A program made the position numbers and the translations under genes. The notes under the pieces are model-generated. The model had not been told where the DNA came from. It searched no databases and saw nothing but the letters and a program-made list of their open reading frames with translations. Positions 24,486-48,556 of a DNA stretch of 64,000 bases are shown here, piece after piece. Position 1 is the first letter of the stretch, and every line of letters begins with the position of its first letter. Origin of the DNA: Cymodocea nodosa (taxonomy: Eukaryota > Streptophyta > Magnoliopsida > Alismatales > Cymodoceaceae); contig JAZBRI010000003.1 in NCBI GenBank assembly GCA_036874045.1, positions 20,685,501 to 20,749,500 of the forward strand. The letters run 5' to 3'.

Positions 24486-24677
24486 TCAACTTCTTTATCA
24501 TGCATGTTTAAGAGAGGTAAAGAGATTCCATTGCATGAAGATTTCATTTGGAATATTTGATAATAAAATGGAAAAATATTTTTGTGACTTATTTCACATG
24601 GTATTGGGCTTAATTGATATTATTTTGATTTAGTTTTGTGCTTAGACATTGGAAAATCTTTCTTACTAGGTTGTAAT

Positions 24678-26238: not shown

Positions 26239-26243
26239 GTAAT

Positions 26244-27780
26244 GAGATGTATACTAGTTTTGGTGTGGTCAGTTTGAGTTGAGATCGAACTCCTTAATGT
26301 AAGGAGTAATTTGACACTTAAGGCCTATTAATGCATGACAGAAAGTTTAGACGGAAAGGAAATGAAAAGTTCACATGGGAAGTTAATGGATGACAGAAAG
26401 TTCAAATAGAAAGTTAAAATTTCTTAAGGGAGTTAGTGCATGACAGAATGTTTAGAAAATTAAAAATTAAAAGAATATATTGCAAACACTACCTAAGGTA
26501 GCATGTTTGATACATTACTCTTTATTTTGAAATTTCAAAAGTAAAACAATATTAATGAAATAAAAAGTACATTTGTTCAAAGTATAAATATAGCTTCTAA
26601 GATATCATTTCAATTGTTATAATATAAATAATATTAAATAGTCCTTCCATCTTACATAACCATCATCATATCTTCACACTTCTTATCTATTAATTTTTTT
26701 CTTTGTTCTTGACTCATTCTAACTTGTACATTTTTCTTCTATATGTAATTCTCCTATTAGTTGTATATCATTAGTAATATTTAATTCTTTCAACTCATCT
26801 AGTAGGTTTTCAAGTAAATCTTCTTTATTAGTTTTGCAAATGAAATTGTGAAGTAATAATTATGCGATAACAATTTTCACTTGTGTTTCATATTAATATG
26901 TTATCTAACTCTGTAATATTGAAAAATATTGTCTAACAATTGCAAATGTGCATTTAGTTTATTATATCATTACTAAGAAGTCTATCATTAACATAAGATA
27001 AATGGTATCATACACCTTGAAATGAATAAATATATTTCAGTTGATTTGGATATTCAACATCTACCAAGTAAAACTTACATGTATAAAAAAAGATATTACT
27101 ATGCTAATGTATAATAGGATTTTACTAAGGGTTTGTGTTAGACTTGTAAGGTAGCATAGAAATGTTTTAATATTAGCTTAGAAAATACTAAATGTTGTAG
27201 TATTGGTTTGAAAAATACTAGAGCTTGCCATATTGTCTTATAAAATATACTAGCCAAAGAAGGATAACGTCAAGATTGTGTTAAGCTTTTTTTTTAAGAT
27301 TAATGCGCTCTAACGTGAGGTAAAGAGTATTCTTTCTTTAGATACTTTGGGTATCTCAAACTTGAATAATAGATGATTGAGGTTTTTTTTATTCCTCTTT
27401 TGTTTGTTTCCTTCCTTCCTTTCTTGATAAGATTTTTAGCTAAATCTTTCCCACTTTGTGTTTTTTTTATTATTTTAGATCTTTGATTATGGTTTTTCAA
27501 TTAAAAAAAACTTTCTTTTAAAATGAGTCTCTCAAAATCATTATTAGAAGAGGTCCATGAAAGTAATAGAAAGTTAAGATAAAATATAATACGTTTGTCA
27601 TAACGAAAAGTAAAAAAAAAATTGATAAACTTTTTGATCTAACTTTCTAAGAAAGATTTTTCTTCTTATCTTCTTTTTAACTTTAAGAGATGTAAAAGAG
27701 TCACAAAGTGATGATTCATCATCACCATACGTTAAGCAAAAATTTTCTTTTAATTTCCCTATGAATCATACATTATTATT
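26244..27780 (-). mobile_element. PIF/Harbinger DNA transposon relic
   Basis: Minus-strand reading at 26770-27083 gives KFYLVDVEYPNQL, a degraded middle with IVRQYFSILQS, and then KIVIA-LLLHNFICKT (dash marks a stop). Those are the YLVDAGYPN, FGVLK-RF-IL and ILHNFI landmarks of the DDE_4 transposase. Three subterminal repeats (TGCATGACAGAAAGTTTAG type) lie at 26325-26440. Terminal inverted repeats and a TTA target duplication were not identified, so limits are approximate. The rest of the segment to 27780 shows no gene. Confidence 0.65.
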
Positions 27781-27988: not shown

Positions 27989-29767
27989 TGTTTGGGTTTT
28001 CCCAACACTACACTAGAAAAACTTGGATTTGTTACTTCTATTTTTACTTAGTTAATTTATCTTTATACCTATTTTTTCTTTTAGAAGTAAACAAACAACC
28101 TTTAATACAATTTAGATATTAATTCCAATTTGTACTTTAATTGCAAGTGCACAGTGTCTATTGTATCAGTGTGCAAGTACAGGTCGATCCCATAGGGAAT
28201 TGCTGACGAATTTAAGAAATGTTTGATTGTGAACAATTCAAATTTATATTCAATAAGCACTCCGTTGAGTTACAGTTAACTCAACGGACTAAGTTCGTTG
28301 AGTTATGGCTAACTCAATGGACTATCCTCGTGGACTTAAGTTAACTTCACGAGCCTGTCTCTTCTTTATAATACTACTATTTACAAAGGAATTCGGCCAA
28401 CCATTGGGCGATTCCACAGATTGTAAATAACATCAATTAAGCTTTTTAATGCTAGTTAACATTGGATTTATCATTAAGCAATACTAACATTCAAATGATT
28501 CAAACAGTCACCATTAAAATCTTTAAGTTTTTTGTACGAACCAATTTCAGTAAACTGTAAAATTAAAACTAACATAAAACAATCATAAAACTGATACAGA
28601 TAACATTAATCACGATACAACACAAACAATACAACACTCAAATACAACATACAAACAAAGATAAATTGTTTTTGGTATTTTTGTTTTGATGTGAACATGG
28701 AAATGGGCGAAAGGTGAAATGTAAAGTAATCTCACTTGATAGTAAATACTTCTGACACTACTTGCAACGCGATTACACCATTGAAAATTAAACCACTTAC
28801 AATTCTATCTCCTCTCCCTATAGAATTGCGAGTCCAGAATTGCAAGATGATCTCCTCTTCAGCATATAGGCATCAACCCGAAGCCAAGGCTAAAAGCATT
28901 ACGATCTCTTGAAATATGAGTCGGCGCTTAGTGAAAATGTCTTCCCTTCCCGCGACGCGATCACTCCTCACAGTGGTTGTCAGACACTGTGTTTGGCTCG
29001 AAATCGACCCGACATCATGCAAGTATCCTCACAGACCTCCGATGATTGGTGATTATGGTGGTGATACAATGGTCGGTGTGATACTTCGGAGAATCGCCGA
29101 TACTGTCTGCAGAAAGCTTGGTGCTCCTCCTCTGTATACACTGGTCGTCCATCGATCACACTTTCTTCTTTTTTTCTTCTTTTCTTTTATATTTCTTCAG
29201 TAGTAACTACTTCTGCTTGAATGATCGGTTGGATTTCCTTCCTTTAGATCAACGGCGATGCTTCCTTCTCCATGCACGATTGAATTCCTGCGTGATACGT
29301 GCAAACGTGGTTTTTCCTTCCAACTGTCTGTTCCTACAACCGCTATAGTGGCATTTTAGAAAATAACTATAAAATACATGCAATAAAGAAATAAGCCGCT
29401 AACCTAACGCGTTACCTTAGTGTATATTCATCTAACTCAACGCGTGCAGTTATACTAACTTAACGAGTTAAACATGTGCATCTCACGTGATATTCTAAAG
29501 CATTTAAATTCAACACGTGCATAAAATACATGCAATAAAGAAATAAGCCGCTAACCTAACGCGTTACCTTAGTGTATATTCATATAACTCAACGCGTATA
29601 GTTATGCTATCTTATCGAGTTATAACTTAAGTAAATCTACCAGATCTCGACGCGTGTACATCTAGAAATAATAAAATATTCTCTCTAAACATAATTGTTC
29701 GGCAATTTAAACATAACTATCCGAAATATCAGAAAATTCGGATACTCAATTTAAATTAGTATTCAGA
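27989..29767 (-). repeat. 3' LTR of the Athila-like element (inner ~200 bp deleted)
   Basis: It matches the 5' LTR almost base for base with scattered differences, but stops near 29767, where pol sequence begins. The other LTR continues about 200 bp farther. It contains a 151-bp direct duplication (units at 29370 and 29521, CAATAAAGAAATAAGCCGC cores). Confidence 0.88.
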
Positions 29768-29778
29768 GTTTTTAATGC

Positions 29779-30150
29779 CTAATAAGCTTTATATTCTATT
29801 TCAGCAGGTAAATGACAACTTTTTCCATATACTAGCCTAAAAGGTGACATACCTAAGCTCGTTTTATAAGCAGTTCTATAAGCCCAAAGTGCATCTATCA
29901 ATCTATTAGCCCAATCTGTTCTAGTAGGATTTACTACTTTTTCCAAGATTAATTTAATTTGTTTGTTTGCACTTTCTACTTGTCCATTTGTTTGCGGATG
30001 ATATGATAATGCAATTTTGTGGTTTACTCTATATTTCTTCATTAAGGCTTCAAAAATTCTATTACAGAAATGAGTTTCTCTATCACTGATAATAGCTTTA
30101 GGTATTCCAAATCTGACAAATATATTTGTTCTTATAAATTGTATTACCAC
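29779..30150 (-). pseudogene. Athila integrase, N-terminus deleted
   Basis: Sequence jumps from the RNase H tail KDKKGCEN straight into [20 protein letters not shown]. The zinc-binding HHCC region and the first catalytic Asp are missing. The second Asp ([10 protein letters not shown]) and the Glu region ([10 protein letters not shown]) are present, as is the diagnostic [16 protein letters not shown]. The frame ends about 10 bp from the truncated LTR, so the C-terminal end is lost too. Confidence 0.88.
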
Positions 30151-30483
30151 TTTGATCAAATTCTCACAACCTTTTTTATCTTTAATTTCTAAATCAAATT
30201 CTTGCAATAATAATATCCATTAGATCAATCTAGGTTTAGTTTCTTTTTTCTTTATTAGATGTTTTAGAGCTGAATGATCCGTGTATACTATTACTTTAGC
30301 TCCAATCAAATATGATCTAAACTTTTCTAAAGCAAACACAACAGCTAATAATTCTTTTTCAGTAGTTGTGTAATTAACTTGAGTATCATTTAAGGTTTTG
30401 CTTGCATAATGAATCACTCTAGGAGATTTTTCTATCTTCTGTCCTAACACTGCTCTTACAGCAAAATCAGAAGCATCGCACAT
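30120..30483 (-). pseudogene. Athila RNase H pseudogene
   Basis: [15 protein letters not shown] opens the domain, with [20 protein letters not shown] and [11 protein letters not shown] following. A TGA at 30217-30219 sits where the family has the Arg of RLIRW, consistent with CGA to TGA. The frame then reads [20 protein letters not shown] before the integrase deletion junction. Confidence 0.88.
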
Positions 30484-30702
30484 TAATTCAAATGGATGGT
30501 TTCAATTTGGTGCTTGAATTATAGGAGTTGAAATTAAGCTAGTCTTAAGTCTGAAAAATGCTTCCTTGCAATTTTTATCAAAATTAAATGGAACATCTTT
30601 TAATAGATTAGTTAAAAGTCTAGCTATTTTGCTAAAGTCTTTAGTAAATCTTCTATAAAAACCAGCATGTCCTAGAAATGATCTAATATCTTTTACTGAT
30701 TT

Positions 30703-31503
30703 AGGTTATGGTAGATTAGAAATTACTTCTATTTTAGCTTTATCTACTTCCAACCCTTTTTTAGAAATAACATGCTCTAAGACTATTCCTTGTTTAACCA
30801 TGAAGTGACATTTTTCCCAATTTAAAACCAGATTTTTTTCCACACAGCATTTTAATATTTGGTCTAAATTGCTTAAACACACTTCATATGAGTTGCCATA
30901 TACATTAAAATCATCCATAAATATTTCTAAAAATTCTTCAGTCATTCTAGTAAATATGCCCTACACACACCTTTGAAAGGTAGTTGGCGTATTGCATAAT
31001 CCGAATGACATTCTTTTAAAAGCATAAGTTCCATTAGGACAGGTGAAAGTTGTTTTCTCTTGATCCTCTAATGCTACTAGAATTTGATTATATCCTGAAT
31101 ACTTGTCTAGGAAACAAAAATATTATTGCCCTGCTAATCTTTTCAGCATTTGATCTATAAAAGGTAAGGGAAAATGATCTTTCCTAGTCACAACATTCAA
31201 CTTTCTATAGTCTATACATACTCTCCAGCTTGATTGAATTCTAGTAGGTATCAAGTCTTGACTTTCATTCCTAATAACTGTTAATCCTGATTTCTTGGGA
31301 ACTACATGGATTGGACTAACCCACGAGCTATCAGAAATCGGATAAATTATATCATTATCTAACCATTTAACTATTTCCTTCCTGACTACTTCCTTAAGGT
31401 TTGGATTTAATCTCCTCTCAGGAATTCTAACAGGTTTAGCATTCTCTTCTAAATATATGTGGTGACAGTATAAAGTTGAACTTAACCATTTTATATCAGT
31501 CAT
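30703..31503 (-). pseudogene. Athila reverse transcriptase pseudogene
   Basis: It begins with IPERRLNPNLKEVVRKEI and SSWVSPIHVVPKKSG, then WRVCIDYRKLNVVTRKDHFP, QMLKRLAGQ-stop-YFCFLD, and the active site FMDDFNVYG near 30900-30930. Two stops interrupt it (after LAGQ at about 31121, and after FQRCV at about 30960). All principal RT motifs are otherwise recognisable. Confidence 0.9.
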
Positions 31504-31659
31504 AGTCCATCCTATTGCTTCTTTATAACTTTTTACTACATCTTTTAATTTAGCTATTTGATCCTCTTTTAAATCTGAAGCAATAATGATTGGACAGGTC
31601 CATTTATCTTCCAGAAATATATAGGTTAATTCAGGAGGTAAATGTTTTAATTCTAAATG

Positions 31660-32330
31660 TTACCCATCAGAAGCTAGAGCTCCTAATTGAACATCATCAT
31701 TTTTTAAATTAATTTCTTCGTGATCTCCTTCTATATTTATGCTTTCACTTTCTTCTAAAGTTTCAGAATTGATTTGCCTATTTAATTCTTCTTGAATCAC
31801 ATTATCTAACATATCTCCTTCATCCTCTAAAAAGTCTATGGTATGCAAGGACATTTCTAACTCCTCAAACATTTCTGGTTTGAAAATATTTAATTGAGTA
31901 TCCTCATTACCATATGCTAACTTCATTACTCCAGTTTTACAATTTATAACAGCTCTTGATGTTGCTAAAAATGGCCTTCCCAAAATTAAAGATGTATCAC
32001 TATTTTTATGCTTAATTTGTTGGGAATCCAAAATTACAATATCAATAAGATATATAAAATTCTTGATTTTAATTAAGACATCCTCTATTTTTCCTCTAGG
32101 GTATCTTATACTTCTATCAGCTAATTGAGTAACTGTACTAATAGGAGTTAAGTCTTCTAATCCTAAGGATGCAAATATATCATTTGACATAACATTTATA
32201 CCTGCACTTAAGTTTATTAAGGTTCTTTCTAGAATGGTATTACCTATGGTGCATGATATAACAGGGATTCCAAGATCAGATAACTTTTTAGGAATTTGTG
32301 CCAGAAATAGGGAACTACTTTGCTCAGCTA
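31660..32330 (-). pseudogene. Athila protease with lost catalytic aspartate
   Basis: Conserved flanks are present: TIGNTILERTLI upstream, then QLADRSIRYPRGKIEDVLIK and LILGRPFLATSRAVI. Where the family has a D-L-G-A-S active-site loop, this copy reads N-L-S-A-G (about 32190-32215), so the catalytic Asp and following Gly are replaced. Asp-to-Asn and Gly-to-Ser are both explained by G-to-A changes on the coding strand. An acidic tail leads toward RT. Confidence 0.85.
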
Positions 32331-32373
32331 AAAAGACCTTTCTAAGAACATTTCACTGTCTTTTCTTAGTACA

Positions 32374-32673
32374 CTAATCCTTCAGAAATTTAGCACAAGG
32401 TGGCATATTCTGCAATAGATCTAACAAAGGAATGTTAACTTGCACTTTTTCAAAAATTTCTCTAATTTTTTCTTCTTTTTTAGGAATTGTTTGTTGTAAT
32501 CTTTCAGGATAGGGTGCTAAAGATTTTGATTTCAAAGACTCTTTTTGTTTCAATTGATTTGTTTGATCATTTTTAGCTTCAATTGCAGATTCAGATTGTT
32601 CTTGAGTGATTTCTAGATTTTCAGCTATTACATTTTCATTATCATTTTGATTTTTACTCTTGTCCACCTTCAT
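32374..32673 (-). pseudogene. Athila gag-protease linker
   Basis: A Lys/Glu/Gln-rich stretch followed by APYPERLQQTIPKKEEKIRE and VNIPLLDLLQNMPPCAKFLK. This is the conserved Athila segment just ahead of the protease (PQRL...VNIPLLDAI...AKFLK). A stop after FLKD separates it from the protease. Confidence 0.8.
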
Positions 32674-33105
32674 ATCATTTTCATTTTGAGTTCTTGGTGG
32701 TATATCAGTTCTTGATCTTAATGTTACACATACATCTTCCAGATTTTCGTTACTTTCATGATGTTTTTGTATATCATTTTCGTGATTATGATCTTAAATT
32801 ATTTTTAGTTTTAAAGTGCATTCTTTAAATTCTCTTACATTAGTGTTTTCTGTTTGTTGTATATTTTGCAAGTTTTGTAGGTTTATAACATTATAATTTT
32901 CATTGTCTTGTTGCAAAACTTGTATTTTCATTGCATTTTTGTCTAATGCTTTTAATTTTGTTTCCAGATCATCTAATTTCATTGCATTCAATTTTTTATC
33001 AATTTTCTTTATGGCTTTTTCAGTTTCGTAAATTATATCCTATTTAGGTTCTGAATATGCCTCCTTATAGTTTAACCGGTTGACTTCTTGTTATTGACAC
33101 ACAAA

Positions 33106-33426
33106 GTATTCCAGTTTGTCTAGATTGTGTTCTATACTATGCTCCAGTTTGTCATAGCTATCCCTAACTTGAGTGTCTCTCATCATATTACACATTCTAT
33201 ACTGACCATCAGTTGGGTAAACTATAGGATTCTCATACTCGGCTTTATTATATTGAGGATAATTCATTTGTTGTTCATGAGATCTAACAATCTGTAAATG
33301 TCTCAATTTCAAACAATCAAAAATGTTGTGTCCTTCAGAATTACAGAATTCACATATACTAATTAAAGGTTTCAGAAATCTTTGAGCATAAGCATATGCC
33401 ATATTCTCAATTACAGAAGAAAACAC
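33106..33426 (-). pseudogene. Athila gag remnant with CCHC zinc knuckle
   Basis: The frame contains an intact knuckle CEFCNSEGHNIFDC (C-X2-C-X4-H-X4-C) followed by a Gln/Tyr-rich tail. It starts only about 80 bp inside the primer site, so the capsid domain normally upstream is absent, presumably by deletion. A stop closes the frame near 33106, and degraded coding for a coiled-coil region continues at 32794-32991. Confidence 0.75.
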
Positions 33427-33507
33427 ACAACTCTTGCTATTAAAACGAAATAGGTCTAATAGTTACTTATATTAATTCAATTCACTTCGACTCAATTTAA
33501 TTCAATT

Positions 33508-33524
33508 CCCCGGCAACGGCGCCA
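33508..33524 (-). other. Athila-type primer binding site
   Basis: The minus strand reads TGGCGCCGTTGCCGGGG, the standard Athila/Tat primer site. It fixes the orientation and inner LTR boundary. Confidence 0.92.
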
Positions 33525-33531
33525 TAAAACT

Positions 33532-35475
33532 TGTTTGGGTTTTCCCAGCACTACACTAGAAAAACTTGGATTTTTTACTTCTATTTTTACTTAGTTAATT
33601 TATCTTTACGCCTATTCTTTCTTTTAGAAGTAAACAAACAACCTTTAATACAATTTAGATATTAATTCCAATTTGTACTTTAACTGCAAGTGCACAGTGT
33701 CTATTGTATTAGTGTGCAAGTACAGGTCGATCCCATAGGGAATTGCTGACGAATTTAAGAAATATTTGATTGTGAACAATTCAAATTTATATTCAATAAG
33801 CACTCCGTTGAATTAAAGTTAACTCAACGGACTAAGTTCGTTGAGTAATGGCTAACTCAACGGACTATCCTCGTGGACTTAAGTTAACCCCACTAGCCTG
33901 TCTCTTGTTTATAATACTATTATTTACAAAGTAATTCGGCCAACCATTGGGCGATTCCACAGATTGTAAATAATATCAATTAAGCTTTTTAATGCTAGTT
34001 AACATTGAATTTATCATTAAACAATACTAACATTTATATGATTCAAACAGTCACCATTAAAATCTTTAAGTTTTTTGTACGAACCAATTTCAGTAAACTG
34101 TAAAATTAAAACTAATATAAAACAATCATAAAACTGATAGAAATAACATTAATCACGATACAACACAAATAATACAATACTCAAATACAACATACAAACA
34201 AAGATAAATTGTTTTTGGTATTTTTGTTTTGATGTGAACATGGAAATGGGCGAAAGGTGAAATGTAAAGTAATCTCACTTGACAGTAAATACTTCTGACA
34301 CTACTTGCAACACGATTATACTACTGAAAATTAAGCCACTTACAATTTTATCTCCTCTCCCTATAGAATCGCGAGTCTAGAATTTCAAGATGATCTCCTC
34401 TTCAGCATACAGGCATCAACCCAAAGCCAAGGCTAAAAGCTTTACGATCTCCTGAAATATGAGTCGGCACTTGGTGAAAATGTCTTCCCTTCCCGCGACG
34501 CGATCACTTCTCACAGTGGTTGTCAAGCACTGTGTTTGGCTCGGAATCGACCCGACATCAGACAAGTATCCTCACAGACCTCTGATGATTGGTGATTATG
34601 GTTGTGAAAAGATGGTTGGTGTGATACTTCGGAGAATCGTCGATACTGTCTGTAGAAAACTCGGTGCTCCTCCTCTATCTGTATACACTAGTCGTCCATC
34701 GATCACACTTTCTTCTTTTTTTCTTCTTTTCTTTTATATTTCTTCAGTAGTAACTGCTTCTGCTTGAATGACCGGTTGGATTTCCTTCCTTTAGATCAAC
34801 GGCGATGCTTCCTTCTCCATGCACGATTGAATTCCTGCGTGATACGTGCAAACGTGGTTTTTCCTTCCAATTGTGTGTTCCTGTAACCGCTATAGTGGCA
34901 TTTTAGAAAATAACTATAAAATACATGCAATAAAGAAATAAGCCGCTAACCTAACACGTTACCTTAATGTATATTCATCTAACTCAACGCGTGCAGTTAT
35001 ACTAACTTAACGAGTTAAACATGTGCATCTCACGTGATATTCTAAAGCATTTAAATTCAACACATGTATAAAATACATGCAATAAAGAAATAAGCCGCTA
35101 ACCTAACGTGTTACCTTAGTGTATATTCATATAACTCAACGCGTACAGTTATGCTAACTTAACGAGTTATAACTTAAGTAAATTTACCAGATCTCAATGC
35201 GTGTACATATGGAAATAATAAAATATTCTCTCTGAACATAACTATCCAAAATATCAAAAAATTTGGATACTTAAGAATTTCACAGCCTGCAACTTACCGA
35301 CATTTCATAAATGTACTAAATTAACATTAATTCCCCAAAATTAAGTAGATTTTTCAATTAAATCATATAACAGTGCAATTATAACATAATGACTTAATTT
35401 TCATATGATAAGCTAAATATTATGCAATTAACCATCATTTAATTGTTAATAATATGCACTTTTTCATTCTAAACA
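33532..35475 (-). repeat. 5' LTR of the Athila-like element (1944 bp)
   Basis: Plus-strand ends are TGTTTGGGTTTTCCC and TTCTAAACA. The inner edge lies seven bases from the primer site. It has the same 151-bp internal duplication as the 3' LTR (units near 34917 and 35068). Confidence 0.9.
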
Positions 35476-35513
35476 GTAATTATATCTAAATTAAAAGAAA
35501 ATAAAATATTGTA

Positions 35514-35517
<4 letters not shown>

Positions 35518-35542
<25 letters not shown>
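35518..35542. repeat. (AT)n microsatellite
   Basis: A 25-base AT dinucleotide run just right of the Athila element. Confidence 0.95.
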
Positions 35543-35544
<2 letters not shown>

Positions 35545-35589
35545 GAATTAAATACATATATATAAAATAAATCTACACTTCAAAGTGAT

Positions 35590-36370
35590 CAAACAAAGAG
35601 TTTGCCATAAAGGTGTCAATGGGTCGAGCCAACTTGGCTTGACCTAAAAAGTATTAGCTTGTTTGGGTTATGAGCTTGGTTGATTTTTTTTTTAATTTTT
35701 TTGAGACAACTCAACTTGACCCAAAATTTTTTCGAGCTAGCTCAACCCAGCCTGAAATTTTTTCAGGACAACTTGGCCCAACCTGTAGCATACTCCTTTT
35801 ATAACTTTTTATTTTTTTCTTTGGTTTGACCAAATTATTTTTAATTTTTTAACGATATGATCATAACTTTACTTCGGCCTAATCAAATTTTTTTATTATT
35901 TTCTTTTTCGATTTGATTGAAACTTACCTTTGATCCGATTGAAGTTTTTTTATTTTTTAAATATTTTATTATTATTATTTTTTGATTTGACTGAAGTTGA
36001 GCTTTGATTAGATTGAAATTTTTTATTTTTTTTTCAATCTGACCAACATTTTTTAATTTTTTAATTTTTTTCTTCAATCAGATCAAAGATAATTTATTAT
36101 GAGCTTGGTCGATTTTTTTATTTTTTACATTTATATTTATTAATTATGTTACATTTATTAATGTGAGATATATAGGTTACATCTATATTTAATGAAATAT
36201 TAATATATACTATAATATTTAAAATGTTATTTTTCAAATATGATATTTTTTAATTTAGTATTTAATTTTTTTAAAATTATTAAATTTTCTATTATTTTTA
36301 TCAAATTAATAGTACTTTTTATCAATTTATTATTTAATATTTTAAAAATAATTAAATAATATATTTTCTA
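35590..36370. other. AT-rich intergenic sequence with short degenerate repeats
   Basis: From 35630 to about 36110 the motif TTGATT(C/T)GATTGAAG followed by T-runs, and CAACTTGACCCAA-like phrases, recur irregularly. From 36110 to 36370 it is nearly pure A/T. No gene is seen. Confidence 0.5.
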
Positions 36371-36864
36371 TCATTTCCTTCGATTACATGTACATCTCAT
36401 TTTTCTTGCTTTTCGATCGTTTCGTCTGTACAAACGACCTTATATTTTCTAACATCTACTATCAATTTCATTCTCCAATCCAAACGACCCCAATCGTCCA
36501 TCCATCCCTTCTGTTCTCTTCCCGTGCTCGTCACTTTTGTTTTTCTCAAATTGGCTGCGAGTGACTTCCATTGATCAATCCGCAGCAAATGTCATTTTCT
36601 CCCAAACTTTTGTCATCTCACGTTTTGAGCTAATCTCTTTCGAAATTCGTCATTGTACGGATCTTCCCTGTCCATCTGAATCGTACTCATCCCGTTTCTG
36701 TTGCCTAGATCTTCACGTCTCCTGCCTTGATCTCGACAAAAAGGGTGTATCTTTCGCTAAACGAAGTAGGTTATTTAATTACTTTTGATTTCTGTATTTC
36801 ATAATTGTAATTTGAGAAGATTTGAGCTTTGTCTGAGCTTCTTACGTTTTGTGCTTTTTAGGAA
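36371..36864 (+). promoter_or_regulatory. Upstream region and probable 5' UTR of the FAR1-type gene
   Basis: Base composition rises in GC from about 36390 after an AT-rich block. A polypyrimidine acceptor TGCTTTTTAG ends at 36861, three bases before the ATG, implying a leader intron that begins somewhere in 36740-36775. Several GT donors are possible (for example at GGGTGTATC or AGGTTATT), so the exon edge is not fixed. No TATA box is evident. Confidence 0.45.
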
Positions 36865-39800
36865 ATGGAAGATGATGATCATGTTCCCGGGGGAATGCTT
36901 GGTGGAGCCACGCGGTGGGATGGGGAAGTGGAACCTCCGAAGGAGGGCATGATCTTTTCTTCCGAGGAGGAAGCTTATGGTTATTACAAGAAGTATGCTA
37001 GTGTCGTGGGTTTCGGTGTGAGGAGGAGTAACACCAAAGTTGGAGGTGACAGGAAAGTGAAGTACTTCTCGATTGCGTGCTCTAGAAGTAGAAAGCCGGC
37101 CTCCAAGACGAAGGCACGAAAGAATTCATCGATCAGAACTGATTGCAAGGCCAAGATTAATCTTATAGTGGATACTGATAGAAGGTTGATTGTCTCTAAG
37201 GTTCGGCTTGATCATAACCATGCATTAGGCTTTGGCAAGGGTCAGAATGGTGCAGATGGGACAAGGCAAAATGACCAGGGGAATGTAAGATTGAATGGAA
37301 GCGCTCATTTGCTTAATTCTCAGCAGGGAGACTCTGATAACTTGCAACTTGGAGAAGGGTCCTTGACGTACTATATCGAGAATTTGGCACACTTGCAACT
37401 TGGAGTTGGGGATGCAGAGGCTATCCAAGATTTCTTTTTCAGAATGCAAAAAAAGGATGCAAACTTCTTTTATGTGATTGATTTGAATAAAGAAGGCCGT
37501 TTGAGGAACTTATTTTGGGCTGATGCGAGGTCAAGAGCTGTATATGAGACTTTTGGAGATGTGATCTTGCTTGATACCACATATTTAATTGAGAAGTATG
37601 ATTTACCACTTGTGTCGTTCCTTGGAGTCAATCACCATGGACACTCTATGTTGTTGGGTTGTGGTTTGCTTTCCAGTGAAGATACTGAAACCTATATCTG
37701 GTTATTTAGATCTTGGCTGGCATGCATGAAAGGACATTCACCTAAGGGTATCATAACAGATCACAACAAGGGCATACAAGATGCAGTATCTGATGTGTTT
37801 CTGGATGTTCCTCGTCGACTCTGTCTTTGGCACATAATGAAGAAATTTCCAGAAAAATTTGGTGGCTATGCTCAATATCAAGAAATTAGAAAATGTTTTA
37901 AGGGCTCTGTTTATGATTCTTTGACGCCAGATGAGTTTGAAGGAGCTTGGAAAAAAATGATTGATGTGTACAATCTTCTAAAAAATGTATGGTTGCAGTC
38001 CTTGTATCTGGAACGCCATCATTGGGTTCCAGTATTTGTGAAGAACACTTTTTGGGCAGGTTTGTCTAAGACAAGAAGAGATGACACCATGGATGCCTTT
38101 TTTGCTGAATTTGTTCATTCGAAGACTACCATAAAACAATTTTTAGAGCAATATGATAATGTATTGAAAAGCAAGGTTTTGAATGAAAATAAGGCAGATT
38201 TTGCTTCAACAAAAACAAGTGTCACGTTAGTTTCAGATCTTTCTATAGAGAAGCAGTTCAGAGATGTTTATACACATGAAATTTTTAACCTATTTCAGGA
38301 AGAGTTGAAAGGATTGCTATATTGTAACACCTCATTTGTTAAGGTTGATGGTTCCTTTTCTTCATATGAAGTGAGTGATAGTGTTAAAATGAAGGATGAC
38401 CAATCTCGGCGGGAAGTGTCATTCAGTGTTCTTTATAGTGAAGTTGAAAATGAAGTACAATGTACGTGCAATTTGTTTGAGTTTAGAGGGATTATTTGCA
38501 GGCATGCTATTGCTGTGCTAATGAAAAATAATGTAAATGCGATTCCAATGCGTTACATTTTGGCTCGCTGGAGGAAGGACATCAAGCGTAGCTACATTCT
38601 TGTGAAATCCTCCTATGATGATTTTAGCATTAATTCACAAATGCAACATTATGACCGCTTGTGCAAGTACTTTTATCAACTTGCAGAAATTGGAGCTCAG
38701 TCCCAAGAGAAGTATGAATGGTTGATGGAATATCTTGATGGGGCAAAAGAGAAGCTCTTCAAGAATGAATATAGTTGTAGAAGCAGAATGTTGTTGGAGG
38801 AACCATCAATATCATCTAGGGGATTTGATGATATGGTCAGTGGGATACCAAACTCATCCAATTGGCTTCTTAGCCCATTACAAGCATACAGAACTGGTCA
38901 CCCTTTAACAAAACAAAAGGTGCTGATTGAAGATCAACACACAAGCACAAACAAGACAATGGTTACTAAATACAATCTTAATCAGCATGCATAAGTTTCT
39001 ATGCTTTTGTTTCTTTGTTTGTACCACAGTTATCACTTTTGTTAATGAGAGTCATCCCATTCACATTTCAAAATAATGTACGGTTATCATGCTAATAGAC
39101 TCTCAATGAGAAAACACAATCGGGAATCTCTTATTAAACCTTTTTCATGCCATATTTCTATTCTCATTTTCTGTTATTTGATTAACATGCATTTTTAAAT
39201 AGGCCAAACCTCCAACTGGGATAAAAACTGTGACAGCTGGAAATAGTCAACACTTTCTTCGGTACCATTATATACAGGTAATAGGGAGAAAATTAATATC
39301 CCATCCATTCATGTGAATATATAAGTCTTGCTGATGATTTTTATTATTACAGATGAACCCAGATCAACTAAATGAAGGACATGGTACACAACTCAGTAAT
39401 CATTGTGGAATCTGGCAGAATTTCAGTCCCATAGTTCTCTTGCAGGTTTTGGATTACCTTCATTTTGACTTTTGGGGAGGGAGAGACAATCAGAAGTTCA
39501 GAATTACATTTTCATTGACATGTTATAATTCAAAACAGCAATCAGGAAGTTCTGGACCCGATTGCCCTGGTGCTGTTTGCTCTTTTGGTGGGAACAGTGT
39601 TCTCAATCCCGACAATGGAAATTCTGGTATGCTTATGTTGGTTCTACTACCATTTTGTTCCGGATTTTTCTATGCAGAAAATATGCTAAGTTTTTTTTTT
39701 TTTTTCATTTGATGGGATTGAGAATATCTTGTTAAATTGAAAAAAATGAATTTCAATACTATTGACTTTCATCTATACAGATCTTATTCGTGCTACGGAA

Positions 39801-39866
39801 GATGATCAACATAATCCTAATCTGGATGTCATAGAAAATCCTGGTGATGAAATGAGAAAACAGTAA
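36865..39866 (+). CDS. FAR1-RELATED SEQUENCE (FRS) transcription factor, five coding exons
   Basis: FAR1/FHY3 proteins are nuclear DNA-binding factors domesticated from Mutator-like transposases. Proposed exons: 36865-38919, 39203-39277, 39353-39445, 39539-39626, 39781-39866. All have GT-AG edges and compatible phases, giving about 798 residues and a TAA at 39864. Domains: FAR1 (WRKY-GCM1) zinc finger about 28-120, with C72, C94, H117 and H119; MULE transposase-like domain about 230-325, with Asp237 in LLDTTY, Asp299 in ITDHNK and a CLWH motif; SWIM finger C533-x-C535...C545-x-H547. If the first donor is not used, the exon reads through to a TAA at 38992-38994 (709 residues). Exon 4 could also begin without splicing (intron 39446-39538 has no stop and is a multiple of three). 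The frame is intact, unlike its neighbours. The exact FRS subgroup is not assigned. Confidence 0.93.
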
Positions 39867-41560
39867 GGTGTGATATCCAATTTAATGTTGTTCCTTTCTG
39901 CTCTATTTACAAGTTGTAGTGAATATCAATATCTTTTTAAAGTGCTAATGGCTGTTATTTCCATCTCAGTTCAAAATATTTACCTAAATCAAATTGTCTC
40001 CAATGTTTCTCCTTTTGCTACGTGCATCTTCCATTTCTTTAACATGGTAATGAATTGCAAGTCAAAATGGAGAATCATTGCTATATTAAAGTTGTATCGT
40101 TATGGATTTGATATCTGAAAAAATACCTAAATTTCCATAATGTTATGTGGTATTTACTGGAATAATCGCATGTTAGAAAAAGTAAGGACAAAACTTAATA
40201 GAAGGATCTCTTTACCTATTGTGAAATGATTTTGAATTAAATGTTCACATTTTATCATAACATCAGAGTTAAAGGATGTCCAATGGATCTAAGTCATCAA
40301 ATCTTCACCACTTCACCTAATCTAATAAAAGAATGTTAGGATCTGAAATAGGTTACAAGTGAAGTATTAGAATAATTTTACACTGAAAAATTGATGATAT
40401 GACTTGTCCTTGTACATAGAAGGATCTTTCCACTTATTACTAATTAGTATTGAAATGGATATTCACATTTGTATCAAATCTTATACGCAAGATGTGCATT
40501 TGTCTAGAGTGATTTTGGTTAAAACGCTGTAGTTTTTCTATTGCTCTTGTAATTTATTCTTTTGCAATTCTATTCTTGAACTTCCTCTAGTTGAGCAGCT
40601 TGGCTTCAGGCTGTCTAGACTCGAGTCCTGGTCATTCTGGTTGATCTGGCTCGAATCACTCCTCTGATTCCCATCCTCCTGATTGGGTAGACCTAGATTG
40701 GGTAGAGTGGTTGCTCTGCCTACAAAAGACCAGGAAAGACATGTGGCCTGTGGTGTGTGAGTCATCAAATATTTTTTGATGCTTGTGTCAGGCAAGGATT
40801 ATCGGAGGGTTAATCATGCTTAGGAATATGTAGCATCTGTACAAGGCTATATATCGTAGTATTTATGACATTGCTTGATGGTGGTGGTTGGGGAACAATG
40901 AATCAAAGAGCTGCATGTAGTGTTGAGGATGACTGGATGACCACATTGCATCTTGGCAGTCAGGCAGCAAGTTGCAGCCAGGTGGCAGCACAATGGATAG
41001 ATGATCAATCAGCTGGCTGGGGGATGGATGACCATCAGTAGTGAAGAAATGTCTTGAGAACTGGTGGTGTCTTTCTGGATTGGCATGAGCTAGGGGCCAA
41101 TCAAACACCCACATCAGATGTAAACATAATCTCCATCGGAATGATATTTTTAATTTTATATTGTAAATTTTTTGTTATTGAATTAAACAACAGGTCTAAC
41201 CTGCCTGTTTTTCAATCAATCTTTGAGAAGACATCAGTGCTTATAATCACTGCTGATACAGGACGGCTCTTAACAATATACTTGTCTTAATCATAAGAAA
41301 TTACATTTATAAAGCAGTAGTTTGTAGATTAGTTTATCGTACAGTCTGCAGGTCAAATTGACCAGTTTCCTGATCTAGTCTTGTTATTGTTGCTCCAGCT
41401 ATATTACTTTTAAAGGTTTAACACTTGTGTACCTTGTGTTTTAGAATATCTCTAAATGTATCTTACACTGGAAGAATAGAAAAACAAAGTAAATAGCATT
41501 GAATGATTCATAATCTTTCTTTTTTAATCCTCATGATTTATTTTTCTTTCTTCTATACAG
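39867..41560. other. Intergenic/3' flank of the FAR1-type gene, no gene seen
   Basis: Two diverged direct repeats of about 65 bp (40199-40262 and 40419-40482, both starting at TAGAAGGATCT) suggest an old small insertion. A moderately GC-rich stretch at 40590-41060 has short frames on both strands without family similarity; it could be non-coding RNA or old transposon sequence. Confidence 0.4.
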
Positions 41561-41891
41561 AATTCTTTGTTATATAAGAGTTTGCAGTTCATAGTTTCTT
41601 CTTTGGATCTGAGGTAATCACATTCTTCGTAACACCATAGCTTTACAAAGGAAATGCCATTGCTAAAATCTCTCTCTCTCTACAAAATACACTTTTTTGA
41701 TAAACTAACCATCATTCATTCTTTTCTGAAAACAATGACATTTAAGTAGTTTCCAGTAAAGTGGATTCCATATTTTGCTCTGTTGACTCCTGAAGAATAT
41801 ATTTTCCAGATACCCTCAGAACTTGGAGGAAATCAGGAAACACGCTTTGCATATTGTCTTCGATGATGCGGTGGTTGATGTCATAATAAAG
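41561..41891 (+). CDS. Possible exon pair of an unidentified gene
   Basis: Exon A (41561-41613) follows a TTCTATACAG acceptor and ends CTGAG before GTAATC. Exon B (41810-41891) follows ATTTTCCAG and ends ATAAAG before GTAGCT. Both have good intron edges and join in phase 2 without stops, reading LQFIVSSLDLR then YPQNLEEIRKHALHIVFDDA, ending VVDVIIK. I do not recognise the family. No further exons or start were found in 40.0-43.0 kb. It could be a fragment of a host gene captured by a transposon, an eroded gene, or coincidence. Confidence 0.3.
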
Positions 41892-42890
41892 GTAGCTAAA
41901 CTTTGAACCCTGTGTCATTATCTTGCTTTCCACCTCCTAAAGCCATTCTATTAGTTGATTCAATTCCATAACAGGTGAACTAGAATCCTTGTTATGTATT
42001 CAGCATATTAAACTAATTGAACTACTTAAGATAAACTGATTTAAATTGATGAAAACTATTAGATATTTCTATGGATTTCATTCATATTGGGTCAGAATTT
42101 TCTTAGGAATTATGAGAAAAGATTTAAATTTATGTAATTTAACTTGGGTTATTATTTTTGTTGTTGGGTCAGAATTTTCTTGCTTCCTGATGCAGTTTCA
42201 ATGCCCTTCCTAACATATCTTCACTACAACTAATCTGCACCAGTGGCTGAAATGCTACTTTTGCTACTCAAAAATAAGAAATGCTACTGTTATTTTATGC
42301 TTTATCTTCATTCATGTCCATGACTTCAACTATATTTCATTATGAAATTTAACTTTGACACATGTTGGCTGAAATTTTCCTACATGTTTGTTTTCCACTT
42401 GGTCAAAATGCAATTTCCACTTCTTGGTTAAACAATATTTCTGTGCCAACATTGGTAAAATTTCATGTTGTAAGATATTTTTATGTTGTTGAGCTCTGTG
42501 CCTGTTGGCATGTTGCAAATGCTAGACCAACATCATGTTTTTTTCCAAATTCTTTTTGCCTTTCTTATTTCTTCCATTCCTTCTCTCTTCTTTCATATTT
42601 CTTTGTAGACATAAGCTTTTACATAAAATTTGTAGATCTAATTTTTTTTTGAATTTTCATTGTTTTAAATTAAATTTCAAAATCACAAATATTCCTATAT
42701 ATATAATATTATTGTCTCTTGATTTAAATTTTATTGATTTTCAACTAATTAAAATTGTATATCAATTTTGTATGAGTAATTATTCATGTTAGTATCCTTG
42801 ACCATACTTGTTCTCACTTTAGTACCTTTAACTTCAAAATGAATCACCTTGGTACATACTATACTTGTTGACAACATCTATTCAGTGTTA
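41892..42890. other. AT-rich sequence, nothing assignable
   Basis: T-rich stretches produce hydrophobic short frames (42362-42792) with no family features. No repeat or element boundary is clear. Confidence 0.5.
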
Positions 42891-42891
42891 T

Positions 42892-42967
42892 AAAGTTCCC
42901 ATCAAGTTGTTTGCAACAAAAAAAATTACAAAGTTCCCATCAAGTTGTTTGCAACAAAAAAAATTAC
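42892..42967. repeat. Perfect 38-bp tandem duplication
   Basis: Two adjacent copies start AAAGTTCCCATCAAGTTG, at 42892 and 42930, and end AAAAATTAC. They show no differences, so the duplication is recent. Confidence 0.92.
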
Positions 42968-43029
42968 AGCTGAGAAAGAGGAAGAAAGTTCATGAATGGG
43001 CATCATGAACACATGCACCTTTCACATTG

Positions 43030-43455
43030 GTTGAAGGCTTGAATGGGCAATCCATTGCATTGAGTGGTGAGAAGGCCATCATCATCCCCTCAAAATGGAA
43101 ATCATTTGAGTAAAAAAAAATTAGAGAGTAAGAGTGCAAAATTGGAAAACATGGAGGGGAAATTGATGGGGAAGTATGCTAGGAGATAGTGGTTTGAGGC
43201 TTGATTGGGCAATTTGCCACATTGGATAGTGAGAGGGCCACCACCATCTTCTCAAATGACAATCATGTAAGGAAAACAAAATTGGAGAGTAAGAATGTGA
43301 AATTGGAAAACACAAAGGGGAAATTAAAGGGGAAGTGTGATGGTCCCTCAAGGTTGATGAAGATGGTTGGAAGCTTGATTAAGCCATTCACTACATTGGG
43401 TGGTGAGAGGGCTACCATGAACTTCCCAAATCAAAATCACTTGAGATAATTAAAT
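43030..43455. repeat. Three diverged tandem units of ~170 bp
   Basis: Units begin near 43032, 43195 and 43370 with GGCTTGAATGGGCAAT-type sequence. Each runs through TTGAGTGGTGAGA(G)GGCC and a run with AATTGGAAAACA and GGGGAAATTGA. Divergence is substantial and the third unit is truncated. The short minus frame at 43121-43351 is a by-product. Confidence 0.75.
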
Positions 43456-43493
43456 TAAGATGCAAACACCAAAAAGTAATCAATTGGTGATGA

Positions 43494-44851
43494 TGTTAAG
43501 TATTATGTTTTGATGATGTGTGCAAAACATAAATAATCATATTTAGTCAATTATTATTGTTTATGAAAGAAAATTAAGAGTATCATTTAATATAGAAAAA
43601 GTTTAATGTTATATACTTGTCTGAAATGGATATGAAATTATGCTAAGTTAAATAATTAGTCATTAAGTTATACTAACTTTTCATTTAACTAAACGTTAAG
43701 TTAATGTATGTTTTTATTGTAAAATATGATATGTTTTAAAGTTATAGTTTTGTATCATGTACAGTGCACGTTAAGATAATTCATTGAATTAGTGTTTTGT
43801 TTGTAAATCGGTTACATGAGAACTCGTTGAGTTATAAGCTTAAAGGTTAAAAATCAGTCACGTGAGAATTCGTTGAGTTGGTGAATAAAATGTTAAACTG
43901 AAAGGACAAATTTGTTAAGTTAGTATTATGTATGTGGTGAATTTAAGTTTATGAATGTTATAATGTATCATGTGAGTTACACATATTTAACTCATTAAGT
44001 TAATATAACTGCACGCATTGAGTTGTTTTATTGAACATTAAAACAACGTGTTAGGTTAGTGTTATAAACTTAAAGTTATTATTATTGTATGTGATATATA
44101 TATTATTGTTTAAAACATTTATTTATATATATTTAGTTTGTTAAGTTAATTGTAATACCACGAAGTTAGTTCGTTGAGTTAACAAATTATACAATAGAAC
44201 ATGTCACGTGAATGACACATGCTAAACTCGTTAAGTTAGACATGTAGAGTTATAAATTTACTTATTTTACTTGTTTAGTTAACATTAATACAATAACTTG
44301 TTATTACATTTGATGAAAAATTTTAGATGAGAAAGTTTGTTTTACAGGAAATTTCTCACAGGATTTAGGATTGATAATTCAAGAAAATTCAAGAATAAAA
44401 CATAGATCATGTAGTTCGAAATTTGAAAATAAAAGGAAAAAGAAAACATGAAGAGTGGAGATAGATTGTAGATAAACGTGGAGGATATGCATGAAATGGA
44501 AATACAGTATAAAAGGTATAGAATTCTCGTTGATCAATCATTCCTTCACAATTAAAGAAAAATCTTTTCAAGGATCAACACCTCTCAGGAGAAAAATTCT
44601 CAAGAAGGAAGTAACTTCGGTGAAGAAGAGAAAGTTAGATATTTGTCATTGAAGATTTGTTGAAGAAGAAGAAGAAAAGGAAAATCTCAAACATAAGAGA
44701 AATGTTTTAAATTTCATAAATTAGTTTTTCTCTGTTTGTAACCATGAAATTGATTAGACGAAAAAAAATTGTATTAACTTATCATTGCATCTACAATTTT
44801 AGAGGAGAATTGAATTATATATTGAAATTGAAATTTTGAATAAAATGATTT
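43494..44851 (+). repeat. 5' LTR of the SIRE-like element, cut by the Ale-like insertion
   Basis: It opens TGTTAAGTATTATGTTTTGA. It includes GTTGAGTTA and CACGTGA motifs at 43820-44240 and a TATAAAAG box at 44508-44515. The right end is not visible because the Ale-like element begins at 44852. A degraded primer site (CAATATCAGAGTTT, near 48649) follows that insertion. Confidence 0.7.
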
Positions 44852-44975
44852 TGTTAGTGTGTGTGGGTATTGTATTCGGGTATATGGATCATTACATGGA
44901 TCCTCTCCTATATATATACCCTTTATGTAGCTTGTTTTAGATGTATGAATCAATTTTTCCTTCTCCTTCACAACA
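44852..44975 (+). repeat. 5' LTR of the Ale-like Copia (124 bp)
   Basis: It opens TGTTAGTGTGTGTGGG and closes CCTTCACAACA, with TATATATA near 44910. The primer site follows without a spacer. Confidence 0.75.
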
Positions 44976-44989
44976 TGGTATAAGAGTCC
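44976..44989 (+). other. Primer binding site, tRNA-iMet type (one mismatch)
   Basis: Reads TGGTATAAGAGTCC against the usual TGGTATCAGAGCC, directly after the LTR end. Confidence 0.75.
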
Positions 44990-45534
44990 TAGGGTTCATT
45001 TTCCTACCGCCACTACCACCGTCGTTGTCGCTATCGAAACCCTAGTTTCGCCGCCACCGCCGGAAATCGAGTTCCGTAGCCACCGTTGGTCTTCTCCCTG
45101 CGTATAGGTCCCCTCTACACGGCCGTCGTCGTTGCTTGTGCCATCGCTACCATCGCCTACGTCGCTGCGGCCGTCGTCATAGGTTTCCCCTCCGTGTGGG
45201 ATTCCCTTTTCCTTCTCCTTCTTTACAATAAAGAGGTTGTGAAGTCCATAACAAAAAAAAAAAATTGTTATCTTGGATGGTGACTACCATAGTATTCTAG
45301 GTTAGCTGGTTTGTTGATCTCTGTGCAGAAGGTGGCTGTTGAATCCACCGGTGTTGCAGAAGGGAGCTGTTGAACTCTCCTAGTTTGTGGGATGTTGTTT
45401 CGAGACTCGATGATACGTCCCATTTCTAGACCATCCGTGAAGCTGAATGAATTCAACTATCATATATAGTCACTGAGCTTTCTCACCTTTGTTGCTGCTT
45501 AAAGGAAGAGCAAACTTCTAACCTAGCCTCCAAT

Positions 45535-48500
45535 TGATATCAAAGACGTCACCTATGATGATTGGTTTGCAAATGATGCTACAGTTATCACTTGGTTGGA
45601 GAATAGTATTAAACCATCTGTGGCTAAGAGAGTAATGATGCTTCGTCCCACCAAGTTGATTTGGGACACCTTATGGTAGATGTATGTCAAAGAGAGAAAC
45701 ATTCTGAAGGTATATGATGTTTATGAGCAGATTTTCAACCTAAAGATGGTTGATCAATCTATACAAGAGTATTATGAGACTATGAGGTCCTTATTTGAGG
45801 AGTAAAATGTCCTACAACCCCCTACCATTGACCTGACAACTCTACAGAGGTACAAAATGATCTACAGGTGGTTGTTTTCCTTTCTGGTCTTCTCCAGGAG
45901 TTGATTTCCTAGGTTCGGGGGCATTTGCTTGGGGGGGGGGGGGGGAACACTACATTGGATCTTGGATCCGCCTTTGCTAGGGTTCTACGTATCTCTAAGG
46001 CTACCCGTGTGGCGGGTGCAGAACCCTTAGACAATTCAACCCTTGTTTTGAAAGGAAAACAGGAGAGTCGCTCCAACTCAGAGATAGGACAAGGAGGCAC
46101 TGGGTGACATAGAGTCTCGTGTATTCATTGTAGAAAGGTAAACCACAAGTCGGAAAAATGTTGGGAAAAGTTTGGTAAACCCGCTTGGGCAAGGATAACT
46201 ACTGATGCTTATGATACACTTGCTGAGGGCAACACTTCATGGGAAGCTTCTGTAGTGATCTCACAACAAGAGTATGAGAGGTTGAAGCGGGCACAAGGCT
46301 CCAACCCTCCACTCACTATGTCTCTGGTATCTACTTTTGGCATGGCTGCGTGTACTAGTGAGAAACAACCTTAGATTGTTGATTCAAGTGCCTCTCAGTA
46401 TATGATAGGTTGTCCTATCATTTTCTCCCGTCTCCAAAAAATTCCAAACCTTCAGAGTGTTACTGTTGTTGACGATCGTTCATGCTTAATATCCGGACGT
46501 GGCATAGTTGATGTTACTCCTGATATTTAGCTTGAGAATATCCTTTTTGTTCCTGAATTGTCTATTAATTTACTTTCTATTAGTGTTATTATTGTCTAAC
46601 TATCCTATTTTGTAACTTTCTTTCCTTTTCATTGTACCTTTCATGATCTACGGATGAGGATGAGGACGAGGATTGATTTAGGCCATAAGAGGGGCTTAGG
46701 GGAGTATGCTCTTGCTCAAGATTCGCCCTTGCGTGGTCTGGTGGCCTCATTGTTCTCCATTGTTGTGTATTCTTTTCTTTGGCATCGTAGGCTCGGTCAT
46801 TCATCTATTCACAAACTGCACTAGGCGTTACCTTGGATTGATGTTTCTGAGTTTGTGTGTCTTGTCAATTGAGCAAACACCCTTGGACGTCCTATCCTCG
46901 TGTTTCTCTAACCAAGAGTGTTGCTATATTTGATTTGATTTGATTTACTGTGATGTTTGGGGTCCTAGCCGTGTAACCTCTGTCAATGGATATTGGTATT
47001 ATATTGTCTTAGTTGATGACTTCTCTAGAGTCTGTTGGGTACATCTTTTAAAAGACAGGAAAAATATTGTTATGACTATTCAACGCTTTGTTCAAAAAAT
47101 TATCACTTAATTTTTTGTTACCTCAAAATGTCTTAGGACAGACAATGCTCTTGAATCTGTGAGTGCTCAATTTCAACAATTTTGTGCTTCCCATGGTATC
47201 ACTCACTAAATTACTTGTCCTTACACTTCTCAGCAAAATGGAGTGGTTGAAAGAAAACATCAGCATCTTTTAAATATTACTAGAACTCTTCTTATTCACA
47301 TGAATGTTCTTAAATATCTGTGGGTAGATGCTGTTTTTATTGCTGCCTTTCTTGTGAATAGAATGCATTCTTCTCCTCTTAGGGGGGAGATATCTTTTTT
47401 TAGACTTTATCCTGAGGGTGAACTCTTTACTCTAACTCCTAGAGTCTTTAGGTGCACGACATATGTTTAAAACCTTACTCCTGGTTTGGACAAACTTGAT
47501 GCCTGTGCACTCAAGTGTGTGTTTGTTGGGTACTCTAGGACTCAGAAAGGGTATAAGTGTTATCATCCTCTTACCCGGCGATATTACACTACCTATGATG
47601 TCACCTTTTCTGAGGATCAACTTTATTTTCTCTTGGGGGCAAATGACTTAGGTGATCCCTCCACTTCCAGCACCTCTTTGCTTCCTTGTACTACTCCTGT
47701 CCAGTCTGAGGTTCCTATGATAGGTGAGTATCATACTAGAGAGGGCAATGTTGGTGGGGGCAGACCATTGTAGGTGTATCGTAGGTGAGGACCCGAGCCT
47801 GACTCTTTGGCTACACCAAGAATCTCCTCAGAAGCAGATTTTGCCATGCTTTCAGATGACCTATCCATTGCCCTACGAAAAGGTACACACACCTATATGC
47901 AACATTCTATCTCCCACTTTACTTTTTGTAATCACCTTGCACCCTTGTGTCGTACCTTTGCATTGTCTGTCATGTCTGAGTAGGTGCCTAAGACTTATTA
48001 GGAAGCATTCAAGTGTCTCACTTGAGGTGCATTTACACCTTCCTAAGTACTCACTTCTGTAAGAACTTTAGAGTTAACTGTGTTTGAGCAGGAGCAGAAT
48101 CAAGATAGGTGACCATTTGAGAAGTTATTGTGTAGTGCTTATGAATAGTAGTGTTGGCTCTGCTTAAGCGTCGACAAGCTGTAGATGTGTGCACCACTTA
48201 TCTAATTGACATGTCAACATTGTGGGCCTTACTTCAGTCAGTAATCTCAATCGAGTTGGTAGATGGGGTCACTTAGGGTACCTCCAACTAGTTGGGAATC
48301 TTTACGAGATAAAGTGCGCAATACTTAGAGAAATCTACCTTGTTGGGGCCTAGCAATGCTTCTTATAAACTTTCGCCTCCTTGGATACTCTTGGTGTATA
48401 CCAGGCCATTTAAGTGTCTTACTTGGAAATAGGCTATGGATCAAGAAATGGATGCTTTGTTGGCACGTGGGAGCTAGTTCCTTGCCTTATAGATGTTAAT

Positions 48501-48556
48501 CTAGTCTCTTGCAAGTGGATATTCACTGTGAAGTTTAACCCTGATAGCATTATGGA
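45535..48556 (+). pseudogene. Ale-like Copia gag-pol pseudogene
   Basis: Gag core at 45535-45900 (MMLRPTKLIWDTLW, VDQSIQEYYETMRSLFEE). An intact CCHC knuckle at 46120-46161 (CIHCRKVNHKSEKC). The protease shows DSSAS at about 46380, where the family has D-S-G-A-S, so the catalytic loop is altered. Integrase at about 46790-47640 keeps WHRRLGHSS, RTDNALES and NGVVERKHQ, then VFVGYSRTQKGYKC. RT starts at 48414 (GTWELVPC, SCKWIFTVKFNPDS) and is cut off. Stops replace Gln at several conserved positions. A 15-base G run at 45931-45945 sits in the gag tail. Confidence 0.88.

Follow-up and report, generated by a model that had tools for sequence, protein, structure and literature searches.

A 64,000-nucleotide stretch of the Cymodocea nodosa genome (GenBank assembly GCA_036874045.1, contig JAZBRI010000003.1, positions 20,685,501 to 20,749,500 of the forward strand; hereafter the window) was analyzed for a sequence block shared between the long terminal repeats (LTRs) of an Athila-like retrotransposon of Gypsy type and a SIRE-like (Sirevirus-like) retrotransposon of Copia type. 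The block lies in the U3 (unique 3') region of both LTRs. All coordinates below are window positions unless given as LTR positions.

The Athila-like and SIRE-like hosts

33532-35475, minus strand: Athila-like 5' LTR, bounded by TG...CA; flanks attac/attgc, four of five bases alike; primer binding site (PBS) adjoining
33512-33524, minus strand: PBS TGGCGCCGTTGCC, which we take to be of Athila type; no mismatches, and the sole match in the window at two or fewer mismatches
29785-30960, minus strand: decayed Gypsy pol (integrase core, RNase H, reverse transcriptase (RT)), from Pfam
18020-19963, minus strand: Athila-like LTR called solo, meaning that no partner or interior is seen beside it; 73.8% identity to 33532-35475 over 1997 columns, the match to the 5' LTR beginning at 18039
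43494-44851, plus strand: SIRE-like (Copia) 5' LTR, hereafter the 43494 LTR; right end from the first-pass annotation, 3' end seemingly cut by a nested short-LTR Copia
49152-49325, plus strand: Copia-type gag piece (Retrotran_gag_2, E 3e-4, 20.8 bits, cut-off 27), between both copies of the 43494 LTR

The Gypsy assignment of the element at 27989-35475 is firm, because it combines a TG...CA LTR, the PBS TGGCGCCGTTGCC and pieces of RT, RNase H and integrase. These pieces follow one another on the minus strand in the Gypsy-type order, with broken frames (RVT_1, 30709-30960, E 7.8e-8; RT_RNaseH, 30223-30501, E 2.9e-32; rve, 29785-30219, E 6e-5, under the cut-off), and two upstream pieces (31126-31659 and 31663-32352) gave no meaningful Pfam match. 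The ends assigned earlier to the 5' LTR agree with the sequence and the adjoining PBS. The 3' LTR is without about its first 200 bp, and the two LTRs are 95% alike over 1710 columns. An env-like region is absent between integrase and 3' LTR, as the integrase piece stops near 29782, right beside the truncated LTR; we read this as a deletion and therefore name the element Athila-like.

The first 24 bases of the 43494 LTR are those of an LTR fragment at 17564, with no match beyond them. A second copy of the 43494 LTR was located at 51917-52063 (131/147 identical), and at its start, at 51908, lies a degenerate polypurine tract (PPT)-like site, AGGGAAGATTGTT, with two mismatches to a pattern that is in part our assumption. 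Besides the gag piece between the two copies, the other four of five interior pieces gave nothing useful in Pfam, and no pol was recognized. The badly decayed interior and a gag match below the Pfam cut-off would leave room for the 43494 LTR being in truth a Gypsy LTR, in which case the sharing would fall within one superfamily; the Copia-type domain of that gag piece, its placement on the correct strand between the LTR copies, the PPT-like site and the Sirevirus-like LTR start all argue otherwise, and we regard this as very improbable.

A short-LTR Copia at 44852-48690 is probably nested in the 43494 LTR, its limits and a PBS-like site having been taken from reading the sequence. Copia pieces at 46.6-47.8 kb matched gag-pre-integrase (E 0.0019, under the cut-off) and SH3 (E 5e-16), two other pieces of four being unrecognized, and we read the two matching pieces as part of this nested element, which starts near 44852.

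A colinear palindrome array in both LTRs

43821-44181, plus strand: shared U3 array of the 43494 LTR, LTR positions 328-688, colinear with 298-597 of the solo Athila LTR
19367-19666, minus strand: shared U3 array of the solo Athila LTR (18020-19963), LTR positions 298-597
43967-44024, plus strand: 58-bp core in the 43494 LTR
29434-29491, minus strand: 58-bp core in the Athila 3' LTR
34946-35071, minus strand: shared block in the Athila 5' LTR, with a partial tandem second copy at 35067-35169
29399-29524, minus strand: shared block in the Athila 3' LTR, with a partial tandem second copy at 29521-29622
44201-44239, plus strand: second CACGTG + AACTCGTTAAGTTA unit of the 43494 LTR, LTR positions 708-746, 32/39 to 434-472 of the solo Athila LTR

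When aligned in their sense strands, the Athila LTRs matched the 43494 LTR far beyond chance. The solo LTR gave a colinear alignment of 285 columns with 70.5% identity (E 1e-31, BLAST of two short sequences, the setting for which the E-values of the LTR pair alignments were computed), and this alignment had E 2e-28 when the whole window was compared with itself. The 5' LTR aligned over 134 columns (75.4%, E 2e-23), as did the 3' LTR (73.9%, E 9e-21). An extra patch, ACGAAGT.AGT.CGTTGAGTTA, recurs in order at 576-597 of the solo LTR and 667-688 of the 43494 LTR. The shared stretch measures about 300 bp on the Athila side and about 360 bp in the 43494 LTR, runs in the same sense in both and starts about 300 bp inside each.

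The first-pass annotation had described this sharing as a 58-bp block common to 29434-29491 (minus) and 43967-44024 (plus). Its counts proved exact, with 51 of the 58 positions identical and six of the seven differences being transitions, whereas the block as the shared unit did not hold: it is the best-kept part of a homology of some 300-360 bp, and a sharply bounded 58-bp module was rejected, as the match continues colinearly past the block. The stretch ACG(C/T)GTTAGGTTAG, said to follow the block in both elements, does so in the two LTRs of the Athila element but is altered in the solo LTR. The core of the 43494 LTR matches the Athila 5' LTR at 51/58 and the solo LTR at 48/58. Between the solo and 5' LTRs the core is 93% identical, which ranks it among roughly the best-conserved 2% of 58-bp windows for that pair; for a core preselected by its match to the 43494 LTR, this conservation fits constraint and supports it without amounting to proof. 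About 102 bp of the block has been tandemly doubled in the Athila 5' and 3' LTRs, the doubled parts being 94% alike within each LTR.

All six core transitions run the same way, C or G in the 29434 copy standing opposite T or A in the 43494 copy, and three of them fall at CpG; this looks like decay of methylated cytosines. The skew is milder over the full alignment with the solo LTR, where 23 of the 62 mismatches are C>T or G>A toward the 43494 copy versus 14 in reverse.

The block consists of several copies of a dyad-symmetric imperfect palindrome, AACTCGTTRAGTTA (dyad AACT...AGTT), plus CACGTG words, which we take to be G-boxes; the dyad is presumably a factor site. At two or fewer mismatches this 14-mer matched 37 times in the window, whereas ten first-order Markov sequences averaged 1.8 matches. 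All 37 begin within the eight LTR spans analyzed, which together cover 12,111 bp, none in element interiors, and 32 are in element sense, with the 17564 fragment assumed to be plus. Six sense copies were counted in the 43494 LTR, six in the solo Athila LTR (five within the block) and eight in a further Sirevirus LTR at 23247-24485; of the 19 CACGTG words in the window, 15 fall in the eight LTR spans. The observed/expected CpG ratio is 1.8 in the block of the solo LTR and 1.49 in that of the 43494 LTR, compared with 0.47 for the window. The array starts at LTR position 328 in the 43494 LTR and 298 in the solo LTR, in both upstream of the TATAAA taken as promoter (1015 and 794, respectively); further TATAAA words occur at 758 in the former, while the latter has one at 1732 and another within the block, at 324, and TATAAAAG lies at 44508 in the 43494 LTR.

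A second cluster of palindromes, CCGTTGAGTTA, lies near the 3' ends of the Athila LTRs (28258-28321 and 33804-33888) and partly resembles the U3 array (87% identity over 45 columns to 569-613 of the solo LTR; 22/24 to the 43494 LTR).

Spacers, shuffles and a control LTR

23247-24485, minus strand: Sirevirus LTR used as control, with the same AACTCGTTRAGTTA motif and unrelated spacers; PBS at 23233 with one mismatch; eight sense motifs

Shared descent was separated from a shared motif by means of the sequence between the repeats. The spacing of the repeats is kept (328/374/416/496 in the 43494 LTR versus 298/343/386/458 in the solo Athila LTR), and identity extends through the spacers (120/166 columns) as well as the motifs (82/98). 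With motifs fixed and spacers shuffled, the Smith-Waterman score of this pair was 136, whereas 60 shuffles gave 33 ± 3 and never more than 44, and the same motif-preserving shuffle gave 106 for the Athila 5' LTR against a null maximum of 40. When motifs were masked, the solo and 43494 LTRs still outscored every one of 200 shuffles (score 40, shuffled maximum 35). The control LTR stayed at null level under motif-preserving shuffling against the 43494, solo and Athila 5' LTRs. The repeat alone is insufficient to explain the match, because no spacer shuffle of the pair scoring 136 exceeds 44, and a motif-bearing control LTR matches only words of 17-24 bases. Chance or low complexity was ruled out as a source of the match by the motif-preserving and masked shuffles together with the control, the masked Athila 5' LTR being the exception.

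These scores also bear on convergence, in which host factors would select the same palindrome in many LTRs and tandem amplification would yield similar arrays. The motif is indeed common to LTRs with unrelated spacers, near-identical repeats are described in Sireviruses of very low overall homology (PMC2829016, accessible text), and one of the two Athila LTRs tested stays within its null once motifs are masked. The spacer identity, the matching spacing and scores far above motif-preserving shuffles nevertheless make convergence improbable.

Outside the block, three of five flank comparisons were at chance (58, 30 and 76 of 100 shuffles reaching the score); the other two share a marginal A-rich patch. 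Kinship of the whole LTRs was thus considered and is not supported. The flanks are equally relevant to a nested mini-element or Athila LTR fragment inserted in the 43494 LTR. Nesting seems heavy locally, as in the short-LTR Copia within the same LTR, but an insertion would have to account for the shared orientation and U3 offset, the bulk of the ~1.9-kb Athila LTR is unrepresented in the 43494 LTR, and the flanks are unmatched beyond that one patch, so this origin appears slightly less plausible even than convergence.

Probable transfer between superfamilies and known parallels

From the spacers common to the 43494 LTR and one Athila lineage we infer transfer across superfamilies: a U3 enhancer-like array of common descent, present in one Athila-type and one Sirevirus-type LTR lineage, has probably passed between Gypsy and Copia elements. 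Of the module exchange put forward in the first-pass annotation, sharing by descent is supported by colinearity, spacing, spacers, sense and place in U3, whereas no sharp 58-bp unit was found, and recombination or template switching would be the presumed route. Most likely, either reverse transcriptase switched template between co-packaged RNAs of the two elements, or ectopic recombination took place between LTR DNA. The array would probably bind a host transcription factor and drive transcription of both elements. The literature presents arrays of this kind as a typical Sirevirus feature, which tips the likely direction slightly toward Sirevirus to Athila.

Alternatively, the two LTR lineages could each have picked up the array independently, both drawing on one third source; another Sirevirus LTR or a satellite-like repeat would be candidates. 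Other carriers do exist, the motif array being present in the Sirevirus LTR 23247-24485 as well. Yet this is the only other large array of the motif in the window and its spacers are unrelated, and the same orientation and near-equal offset would need to arise twice; we therefore consider a third source unlikely, though less so than convergence.

Several observations weigh against a transfer between superfamilies. With motifs masked, the Athila 5' LTR scored 31 against the 43494 LTR, which is not above its null (27 ± 2.7, maximum 39). The control LTR has short words in common with the solo Athila and 43494 LTRs, one of 17 bases and an inverted one of 24 (E ~5e-4). Two overlapping right-flank comparisons with the Athila 5' LTR are borderline, their scores being reached by 1 and 2 of 100 shuffles; the signal is a single A-rich patch at the Athila TATA box. 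The Copia (Sirevirus-like) assignment of the 43494 LTR, drawn from a gag match below cut-off, the degenerate PPT and the LTR start, is weaker than the Gypsy one. The PPT-like pattern has three matches in the window, two besides that at 51908, and the Sirevirus PBS (TATCAGAGC; PMC2829016, accessible text) was not found at the end of the 43494 LTR, which seems lost to the nested insertion. The CpG ratio of the whole 23247-24485 LTR is 0.32 despite the same motif, which means that the motif can occur without CpG enrichment. As to direction, CpG islands at the LTR 5' side are described also in Del, a Gypsy lineage (PMC4029996, accessible text), and CpG richness alone is therefore no pointer to a Sirevirus donor. 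Finally, the sample is one 64-kb window, with one Copia LTR copy carrying the array and three Athila LTRs.

The closest known system is the repeated motifs (RM) of Sirevirus LTRs, described by Bousios et al. 2010 as palindromes upstream of the TATA box that form CpG islands, from which mainly stress-related factor sites were recovered, and called Sirevirus-specific relative to 'classic' retrotransposons (PMC2829016; this and the following comparisons refer to the accessible parts of the papers cited). Like the RM, the array found here is a dyad-symmetric repeat upstream of TATA, and its start at 298/328 lies within the usual 200-400 bp of the RM. It differs in that AACTCGTTRAGTTA lacks a CGG-CCG core (Tnd-1 being the same exception in that paper) and in copy number, with six sense copies in the 43494 LTR and six in the solo Athila LTR compared with at least eight per element. 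For the CpG island of the RM the comparison covers the observed/expected ratio, which is 1.8 and 1.49 in the block, 0.47 in the window and 0.32 in the 23247-24485 LTR as a whole. The array is also present in a Gypsy LTR, and no Gypsy carrier is named in the accessible parts of PMC2829016.

Recombination between elements has several precedents. New insertions of Onsen are pairwise recombination products, as in retroviruses (PMC5668417), within one family rather than, as here, across two superfamilies. In Arabidopsis, recombination among distant Athila families gave lineages of mixed origin (PMC2410132); the parents named there are Athila families, with one donor uncertain and nothing from Copia in the accessible text. 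LTR recombinants among Drosophila rover variants were tied to altered cis-regulatory behaviour (PMC12992720), again within one insect endogenous retrovirus lineage and not across superfamilies, and the accessible text of two further papers (PMC7145672, PMC4079200) reports recombination between elements, none of it across superfamilies. A U3 array common to Gypsy and Copia was not reported among the matches listed in a literature search of titles and abstract openings, which left subscription literature mostly uncovered. Two exact words from the core, 25 and 22 bases long, had no matches in viral_contigs and genome_contigs, neither of which is a plant collection.

The prevailing view is that LTR control regions evolve inside element families. 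If the proposed transfer is true, retrotransposon families can trade promoters across the Gypsy/Copia divide, which could help explain why a given stress or tissue activates unrelated families together, and could lead classifications based on LTRs astray. More tentatively, palindromic LTR arrays may be mobile promoter cassettes that offer short homology for switching or recombination and respond to the same host factor, giving a common Gypsy/Copia pool of U3 sequence; we hold this broader proposal to be possible but doubtful.

Other LTRs and features of the window

Two further Sirevirus-type LTRs, 21190-22955 and 24676-26300, have a different palindromic unit in common, TCGGATAGTTA / TAACTATCCGA (identified by eye and from a BLAST match). 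These two and the 23247-24485 LTR match one another above nulls, as LTRs of a single lineage may. The pattern AAGTYA-N(6-12)-YAYGTG occurs nine times in the window, each time in an LTR and in sense; the gap is 10 in the 21190 and 24676 LTRs (5/5) and 8, 9, 8 and 11 in the 43494 and solo Athila LTRs, and the pattern has no match in the Athila 5', Athila 3' or 23247-24485 LTRs. A tie of the Athila LTRs to the repeat type of the 21190 and 24676 LTRs was considered and gives no firm claim, with scores of 28-36 and two of six comparisons at or above the null maximum (33 vs 30; 36 vs 36).

No RNA family reached its gathering score in 28000-53000. Within that interval, 36862-38994 holds an uninterrupted 710-codon open reading frame with FAR1, MULE and SWIM domains, which could be a FAR1-like host gene or a domesticated transposase. 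A piece at 57269-57352 resembles a glutamine amidotransferase domain (Pfam E 0.0099, under the cut-off) and is perhaps, as we assume, a CTP synthase exon. At 62400-63050 lies a minisatellite-like array with steps of about 18 bp, rich in GAAGCTCGCCGACCGCTC-like words.

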